The notes beneath the pieces are model-generated. The model did not search any database and was not told the DNA's origin. It saw nothing but the letters and a program-made list of their open reading frames with translations. DNA of 21,933 nucleotides from a virus, in the IMG/VR virus record IMGVR_UViG_3300044644_000117, positions 1 through 21,933 of that record; one strand, given 5' to 3'. Position numbers and translations under genes: made by a program. This document shows, piece after piece, positions 1,695 through 20,680 of the stretch (position 1 is the stretch's first letter; each line of letters starts with the position of its first letter).

Positions 1695-1724
1695 AAAAAA
1701 GACCCAATGTAGAAACATCAGGTC
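1695..1724 (-). terminator. Intrinsic terminator after the SSB-like gene
   Basis: Read on the minus strand: stem GACCTGATGT (1724-1715), loop TTCT (1714-1711), stem ACATTGGGTC (1710-1701), then TTTTTT (1700-1695). All ten positions pair (two are G-U). It closes the transcription unit containing the HTH, membrane and SSB-like genes. Confidence 0.88.
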
Positions 1725-1868
1725 GTATGCTACACTAATGAAACACATTTGCTTAATCTTATTAAGCAATCGTCAGAATATATTGCTCAATCTTGTGGAT
1801 TTAAAATAAATGGGGTGGGATACCCTCCCTAAATGCGAACCTTCGCAACCCCCGAATACAACCCAACA
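1725..1868 (-). ncRNA. Candidate structured RNA / 3' UTR before terminator
   Basis: About 145 bases with no gene between the SSB-like stop codon and the terminator. On the minus strand a compact three-way junction can be drawn: closing helix GGGG (within 1853-1849) with CCCC (1815-1812), enclosing hairpin TGCGA-AGGT-TCGCA (1847-1834) and hairpin GGGA-GGGTA-TCCC (1829-1817). Further along lies a perfect 9-bp hairpin (1769-1749). The region is richer in G/C than its surroundings. It may be a structured 3' UTR protecting the mRNA or a processed small RNA ending at the terminator. No known RNA family is recognised; the fold is by eye. Confidence 0.4.
1749..1769. repeat. 9-bp perfect hairpin inside the untranslated region
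   Basis: TTGCTTAAT-CTT-ATTAAGCAA, a perfect 9-bp inverted repeat with a 3-base loop. Neither strand has a T-tract next to it, so it is probably an RNA structural element or a protein-binding palindrome, not a terminator. Confidence 0.5.
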
Positions 1869-19705: not shown

Positions 19706-20680
19706 TTATCCGTTGTATTTATTAACTTCTTCTCTGAGCCACTGCTCAAACTCATCAAGTGCTTTTCTTGGGTCGTGTTCTCTTGCTCTTCCTTTTGCTT
19801 TTTTAGATGCTGCTGCGTATGCTTTGGCATCATCAAGTTTCGTAATTTCTTTAACCCAGCTTTGAATATCATTTCTATCCTTTATAAATATTCCAGCCTT
19901 CCCACAATTCTCCTTCAACCCTTCCGCTTCAGAGCAAATAACTGGTATCCCACTACTCATTGCTTCAGTTGCAGTCATTCCCCAACTCTCATAGGTGCTT
20001 GGCATCAGTAGTATTCTTGTCTGTTTATAAACAGAAAGTATATCAGTAGTTTTGTTAATATAAGTAATATTTGGCAAGTTTGAAGTTATTTGGTTATCGT
20101 ATGAACCCATCACACCTAAAAACTTTTTATTAGGCATTAATCTTGCTATCTCTTCAAATATCTTACCACCCTTATTTTCATTTAAATTTATCAGTGTAAT
20201 ATATTGATTATCAATCGTTTCTACATTAGTATCATAATCACGATAATCAACTGGTGGTGTAAGTATAAAGTTACTCCATTTATAAGCCAATTTCTGTTTT
20301 GCCCATAAAGAGTTATACACTATATGTTGAGAAATTTCTGCATTTTGAATCTCAGGATATAAATGTGTGTTATGTATAAGATGAAATAAAGGCTTTCTAA
20401 ACATTCCAGCCATACCTATTGACCATCTTGTATAGTCTAAATGCGTAAATACACAATTTGACCATCTAAATAAATTTTCAATAACATTTTGGTTAGGAGG
20501 AAATACATCCACACCATCGTAAGTGTAAGTGTTTGTAATCTTATAATGATTAGCTTGATGCAATAACACCCTAACGTGATGCCCTTTGCTTTGTAAATGC
20601 TTTATCATTCTATGAGCCATCATCTCAGCACCGCAAAGATGCTCAGGAGGATATAAGTGTATGCTAAAAAGTATATTCAT
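19706..20680 (-). CDS. GT4-type glycosyltransferase
   Basis: 324 aa, GT-B fold. The N-terminal acceptor domain starts MNILFSIHLYPPEHLCGAEM with the Gly/Ala-Glu turn common in GT4 enzymes. The C-terminal nucleotide-sugar domain has TLINLNENKGG (162-172), LPNITYI (202-208) and the E-x7-E motif ESWGMTATE (E231, E239) followed by AMSSGIPVICSEAEGLKE. The enzyme should move a sugar from a nucleotide donor to an acceptor with retention. It lies within the capsid-to-connector gene run beside an FkbM methyltransferase, so virion protein or host-surface glycosylation are the leading guesses. Start overlaps the upstream gene by 17 bases. Confidence 0.93.
   Translation of the reverse strand: MNILFSIHLYPPEHLCGAEMMAHRMIKHLQSKGHHVRVLLHQANHYKITNTYTYDGVDVFPPNQNVIENLFRWSNCVFTHLDYTRWSIGMAGMFRKPLFHLIHNTHLYPEIQNAEISQHIVYNSLWAKQKLAYKWSNFILTPPVDYRDYDTNVETIDNQYITLINLNENKGGKIFEEIARLMPNKKFLGVMGSYDNQITSNLPNITYINKTTDILSVYKQTRILLMPSTYESWGMTATEAMSSGIPVICSEAEGLKENCGKAGIFIKDRNDIQSWVKEITKLDDAKAYAAASKKAKGRAREHDPRKALDEFEQWLREEVNKYNG

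Follow-up and report, generated by a model that had tools for sequence, protein, structure and literature searches.

A structured RNA with a terminator at the ssb-exo junction of freshwater phages, and the other folds that occupy its slot

In the phage DNA that we analysed (IMG/VR record IMGVR_UViG_3300044644_000117, positions 1 to 21,933; this whole stretch of 21,933 nucleotides is "the window" below), the gap between the genes ssb and exo encodes a real, conserved, and unnamed RNA. It is a structured 3' UTR with a terminator, and is of a fairly ordinary kind; the interest resides in the slot and in its interchangeable, partly tRNA-like occupants. Both ssb and exo are DNA-replication genes of a freshwater phage group, and the junction lies within a replication operon. 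Judging from the sequences of relatives, these phages seem to need a folded RNA at the ssb-exo slot, yet can swap which one they use. We think it somewhat probable that the element makes the 3' end of the ssb mRNA and limits the expression of exo, by termination in the window and probably by tRNA-type processing in relatives.

The product of the ssb gene has no match in PHROG, so the SSB name is based on its tail motif and on context. Its homologs are present in 41 relatives in IMG/VR (57-98% identity), among which the acidic ...PF tail is retained. Bacteroidota hosts are likely, because the named relatives are a contig from a Cytophagaceae MAG (65% identity, with a terminator-only junction) and Cellulophaga phage phi46:1 (27% identity).

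The genes around ssb and exo, on the minus strand, overlap or almost abut, and the gap of 232 nt (1637-1868) exceeds the neighbouring gaps in this compact operon. An earlier sequence-only reading had recognised gene-free, structured space here, correctly, and had put it at about 145 bases, which is too short. It had also drawn a three-way junction (3WJ) closed by GGGG/CCCC, a perfect 9-bp hairpin, and a ten-pair terminator on the minus strand. All three are present, and both the coordinates and the drawing are correct (Table 1). In transcript order, the gap contains the 3WJ, the AAG-loop hairpin, a near-invariant 24-nt box, the terminator, and a leader hairpin, and then exo starts. The terminator has the parts of an intrinsic terminator: a G+C-containing hairpin and an immediate U-run, on the same strand as the gene and 3' of it.

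Table 1. The ssb-exo junction of the window, in transcript order.
Feature	Position	Strand	Description
ssb-like gene	1869-2453	minus	194 aa, C-terminus EGEDTPF (SSB acidic-tip type); upstream gene of the junction; from the open reading frame
Three-way junction (3WJ)	1811-1853	minus	43 nt; P1 1848-1852/1812-1816, P2 1843-1847/1834-1838, P3 1826-1829/1817-1820; closing stem GGGGU/ACCCC at 1812-1852
AAG-loop hairpin	1749-1769	minus	perfect 9-bp hairpin TTGCTTAAT-AAG-ATTAAGCAA, AAG triloop
24-nt box	1720-1743	minus	TTTCATTAGTGTAGCATACGACCT; near-invariant; extends into the terminator stem
Intrinsic terminator	1695-1724	minus	GACCTGATGT-TTCT-ACATTGGGTC + TTTTTT; 10-bp stem, TTCT loop, six U
Hairpin in exo leader	1656-1669	minus	GTCAC-TGCG-GTGAC; also in some relatives (L002, L008, L009, L010, L014)
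exo gene	884-1636	minus	PD-(D/E)XK / Cas4-like exonuclease, phrog_298; downstream gene of the junction

The apex of the terminator hairpin is common across these phages. Among 40 distinct tetraloop terminator hairpins, whose stems differ, 20 have U-UUCU-A, 8 have U-GUCU-A, and 5 have U-UUUU-A. (Hairpins with the shared apex are at 1724-1701 and 3117-3096 on the minus strand of the window, and also in L017, L034-L041, and L142-L211; L numbers denote individual relatives.)

The sequence-only reading had allowed that shuffled sequences might fold as well. The whole 179-nt region has a minimum free energy of -48.6 kcal/mol (z = -2.5) and is more stable than nearly all shuffles (2 of 200 were equally stable). 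With 500 shuffles, the whole region has z = -2.8 (5/500), and coding controls have z = -0.2 and +1.3. The AAG-loop hairpin has z = -3.6 (3/500) and the 3WJ alone has z = -2.2 (13/500). When the terminator is left out, the energy of the region is modest (z = -1.5; 35/500), so energy by itself is unconvincing, and it is the comparison across relatives that settles whether the structure is real.

We read the DNA 3' of the ssb stop codon in each of the 41 relatives. First, the 3WJ is retained in 17 of 17 close relatives (16 and the window), and each of the 12 distinct sequences forms all 14 pairs of the structure (100%). Second, two pairs have changed on both sides, one in P2 (C-G/A-U) and one in P3 (G-C/A-U). 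The covariation score of the 3WJ is 0.134, compared to 0.049 for shuffles (0 of 500 reach it), and the signal is confined to these two pairs, with P1 invariant; because alleles of the 3WJ, hairpin, and terminator have been reshuffled by recombination among these phages, the independent covariation events are few, and recent allele exchange may inflate the conservation. Third, RNAalifold, run unguided on 14 full junctions, predicts both the 3WJ and the terminator. The terminator is retained in 14 of 14 aligned relatives. The AAG-loop hairpin has two doubly changed pairs and covaries weakly within the clade (12 of 500 shuffles reach its score). It is missing from L005 and L042, and L017 and L018 have an AAG-loop hairpin with quite different stems at the equivalent place. 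Overall, the conservation, the covariation, and the RNAalifold prediction support the earlier proposal of a structured 3' UTR that ends at an intrinsic terminator. A small conserved ORF, which could have explained the gap instead, is ruled out by frame-breaking indels in the alignment of relatives. (In L009 and L016, an ORF of about 59 codons is inserted between the 3WJ and the hairpin.)

The element belongs to no family that we could name, as the sequence-only reading had said. Rfam 15 has no matches in the window at the gathering cut-off, and the best sub-threshold scores (SNORD77, 17.3 with a cut-off of 35; sraA, 15.3 with a cut-off of 56) are at chance level. ARAGORN found no tmRNA in the window or its relatives, and Rfam's ribozyme families have no match in either. 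We built a model of the 3WJ (R2), which gives 66.2 bits. Across 2.9 million viral contigs, the 3WJ is found in 17 contigs and the box in 16, in the same phages, with one copy per record, and both are restricted to this one clade.

The box stands out: its mean pairwise identity is 98.5%, far above the 80.6% of the ssb gene, with part of it constrained because it overlaps the terminator stem. This conservation, and a location immediately before the terminator, where the seeds of 3'UTR-derived sRNAs can lie, would fit an sRNA of 150-200 nt, either derived from the 3' UTR or transcribed independently, that pairs with phage or host mRNAs via the box. We consider such an sRNA unlikely. The overlap with the terminator stem argues against it, and we found no promoter evidence. 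Nor did we find an antisense target in the window: the best sites score 27-30, while the best sites for shuffled boxes average 28.4. The earlier suggestion of a processed regulatory RNA with early-gene targets is thus unsupported. A repeated promoter was also rejected as an explanation for the box, as no other copy in the window has fewer than 9 mismatches in 25 and no viral contig has a second copy.

The box could instead take part in a switch. CATTAG in the box could pair with the 5' arm of the terminator (CTAATG or CTGATG) to form an antiterminator, so that the junction would act as an attenuator or riboswitch-like leader for exo, with the 3WJ sensing a ligand or the SSB protein. The SSB of phage T4 (gp32) autoregulates through its own mRNA, which is a precedent; exo begins shortly after the terminator; and most of the aligned relatives allow the alternative pairing. 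But it comprises just six A/U-rich pairs, and by eye in the alignment it is not a conserved, mutually exclusive antiterminator: it is broken in L012 (which has CTAGCG) and the box is different in L017. Also, outside the helices of the 3WJ there is no long conserved sequence that could be a ligand pocket. We therefore doubt that the junction is an attenuator.

In sister phages, the slot directly after the ssb stop codon holds something else. L019-L029, L036, L167, and L352 have a mini tRNA-like structure (mini-TLS) of 51-52 nt at the ssb-exo junction, and L017, L018, and L032 have a somewhat longer version. The mini-TLS comprises an acceptor of 7 bp (8 in some), a 4-bp hairpin whose loop ends in GG, a CAAGAG-like linker, and a 5-bp T-stem with a TTCGANY loop. 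There is no anticodon arm, and 51 nt leaves no space for one. The fold is strongly supported by covariation: 12 of 16 pairs are doubly changed, and the score is 0.590, compared to 0.167 for shuffles (0/500) and at most 0.093 for slid versions. Our model of the mini-TLS (R1) matches 13 loci at 59-77 bits, none of them in the window. In the 27 records that were searched whole, it has one match per genome where present, solely at this junction. When viral contigs were scanned with a pattern and the hits scored with R1, scores of at least 65 bits were found only in this clade (the true matches score 65-77), and the best score from a control scan with the wrong spacing was 20.7. A search of 395 Bacteroidota genomes gave nothing above 26 bits, and thus no cellular source for the mini-TLS.

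The mini-TLS is neither a tRNA, as it lacks an anticodon arm with a 7-nt loop, nor a tmRNA, given its 51 nt and the lack of a tmRNA call from ARAGORN. The annotation tools that we used overlook it: ARAGORN is silent on the mini type, and the Rfam tRNA score for L020 is 13.1 (cut-off 29). A literature search whose coverage excluded most subscription papers turned up no report of a DNA phage with anticodon-less tRNA-like elements.

The 3WJ of the window is not a member of the mini-TLS family. R1 does not recognise it (in the 3WJ phages, the R1 hits are limited to T-arm pieces that belong to separate elements), nor are the tRNA-like folds picked up by the 3WJ model. The hallmarks of the mini-TLS are a 7-nt T-loop (TTCRANY), a 5-bp T-stem, and a 7-8-bp acceptor; in the window, P3 has 4 bp and a loop of 4-5 nt that lacks TTC, and P1 has 5 bp. 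The two elements occupy the same slot and are mutually exclusive. Because the models do not cross-recognise, position is the sole argument for a shared function.

To place the elements on the phylogeny, we used a maximum-likelihood tree of ssb (68 rows) and classes that include the 3WJ with its terminator, the simple hairpin or terminator, the large tRNA-like fold, and the mini-TLS. With the classes partly assigned by hand, the tree requires at least 14 changes of class (the minimum is 4 and the shuffled mean is 37.6). The 3WJ phages form one supported group (96/96), and their neighbours are largely mini-TLS phages. L017 and L018 are nested inside the 3WJ phages (98/97 support). In these two, a mini-TLS sits in the place of the 3WJ and is followed by an AAG-loop hairpin, GTTTCAT, and a terminator. 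The nesting and the arrangement imply that a cassette was replaced at one site.

These relationships raise another explanation, in which the 3WJ is a degenerate descendant of the mini-TLS that is still seen by tRNA-processing enzymes. The two share the slot, the order of three helices, and zero-nucleotide joints at the closing stem; mini-TLS phages are the neighbours on the ssb tree; and the mini-TLS of L017 precedes the same kind of downstream parts. Nevertheless, the 3WJ has no T-loop, its closing stem has 5 bp rather than 7-8, the invariant GG is absent from its hairpin loop in most members, and R1 has no match to it. We consider this descent improbable.

A profile search with ssb brought in more distant phages. 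Some of these have larger tRNA-like folds in the slot, with D-arms of the tRNA-Leu type and odd middles; others have plain hairpins or terminators there, or another motif that ends in GACNGCTTGGAAAGACAAGC. The larger folds adopt a tRNA-like shape in nearly all cases when folded unconstrained. Across about 73 loci, almost every ssb-exo junction has a structured element, as identified by script or, where the strict rules missed (as in L027, L034, L035, L037-L041, L167, L199, and L212), by eye. By script, strict tRNA-like folds are confined to the junctions and absent from the 1.03 Mb of DNA flanking these roughly 73 loci, on either strand; the three apparent exceptions lie within junctions that were lengthened by an inserted ORF. 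In many phages, exo starts about 20-30 nt past the element, which leaves little room for a promoter. Terminators and tRNA-like folds are not strict alternatives, as L017 and L042 carry both. The hairpins of L199 and L206 have no clear U-tract.

We also noted several peculiarities of individual junctions. Large elements that resemble tRNA-Leu, but have a non-canonical middle, are present in L042 (4741-4862) and in L016, L009, L024, L025, L192, L196, L202, L211, and L219. Those of L016 and L009 have an additional hairpin within the D-loop, and L042, L196, and L219 (among others) have a hairpin topped by UUGGCG in the position of the anticodon arm. In L003, L004, L015, L186, L196, and L202, a further RNA-like motif, which ends in TGACNGCTTGGAAAGACAAGCAA, lies beside ssb. 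In the junction of L037, an extra stretch of gene appears to be inserted after the terminator and ahead of exo (by script, the exo-like start comes only after 765 nt).

The larger elements retain a tRNA-Leu-like D-arm and T-arm, and that of L042, the single element among the relatives that belongs to a known Rfam family, still scores as a tRNA (43.3 bits). The junction might thus be a landing site for captured host tRNA genes that then decay, leaving structures that are passive remnants. We consider this very unlikely as a general explanation. The stems of the mini-TLS (acceptor, hairpin, and T-stem) are maintained via 32 compensatory cells while the anticodon arm is absent from all, which indicates selection on the fold, not decay; and the 3WJ is not visibly derived from a tRNA. 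Decaying captured tRNAs may be the origin of the large folds, but this leaves the compensatory changes in the mini-TLS unexplained. We also rejected the attP site of a tRNA-integrating phage, where just the 3' half of a tRNA would be expected; in the tRNA-like elements, both strands of the acceptor are present and covary. (In Cellulophaga phage phi46:1, a tRNA T-arm adjoins the integrase gene and is likely an attP; L141 2723-2739, minus strand, or 20002-20018 of the record.)

How would an operon-junction element that makes the ssb 3' end and limits exo work? RNA polymerase would transcribe ssb, the 3WJ, the AAG-loop hairpin, and the box, and would mostly halt at the terminator. The ssb mRNA would thereby acquire a defined, structured 3' end that could resist 3' exonucleases. 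A fraction of polymerases would continue into exo, giving SSB in excess of the exonuclease. It would make sense to express ssb more strongly than exo, given that large amounts of SSB are usually required. In sister phages, the tRNA-like folds could do the equivalent job if the ssb-exo transcript is processed by the host's RNase P and 3'-tRNA processing. RNase P accepts substrates comprising an acceptor and a T-arm, and its targets include tmRNA, the tRNA-like ends of viruses, and the mRNAs of operons (PMC11143913). More tentatively, it is possible that the elements, including the anticodon-less mini-TLS, are interchangeable RNA cassettes for operon punctuation, with host RNase P and 3'-tRNA nucleases cutting between ssb and exo, and with lineages swapping to the 3WJ and terminator and back.

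In a compact operon, a fixed slot that requires a folded RNA yet accepts folds unrelated to one another offers a natural experiment on the role of 3'-end elements in phage mRNAs. Should host RNase P cut the mini-TLS, this element would represent a minimal substrate from nature and, in a virus of bacteria, a counterpart to the tRNA punctuation of mitochondria.

Several known systems resemble parts of this picture. Like the tRNA-like domain of tmRNA and the TLS of plant viruses, the mini-TLS of sister phages has an acceptor and a T-arm, with a GG-loop hairpin replacing the D-arm and no anticodon arm. Unlike them, it has only 51 nt and no tag reading frame, and a DNA phage carries it between two genes; the 3WJ of the window lacks the T-loop and the acceptor length. 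Phages of Bacteroidota and Bacillota have theta (HDV-like) ribozymes adjoining their tRNAs (PMC10879173). These ribozymes too are RNA processing modules beside phage tRNAs, but no ribozyme family matches at the ssb-exo junction. The STAXI motif is another structured element that is often near ssb genes, but it consists of repeated pseudoknots (PMC2864571), whereas the window has no Rfam match. RNase P also cleaves operon mRNAs (reviewed in PMC11143913). As in that cleavage and in the tRNA punctuation of animal mitochondria, a tRNA-like fold lies between two reading frames, probably on one transcript; but the mini fold cannot decode, its processing is putative, and the window has a terminator-linked 3WJ instead. 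Finally, in the sib retroregulation of int in phage lambda, RNase III cuts the read-through RNA, which destabilises the upstream gene. There, in the 3' UTRs of phage operons, and in the window, a structured RNA and a terminator lie 3' of a phage gene and probably set the fate of that gene's 3' end. One paper terms regulation by 3' UTRs highly unusual among bacteria and notes a precedent from a phage (PMC2864571). Unlike sib, the element in the window is internal to an operon, and in relatives unrelated structures take its place.
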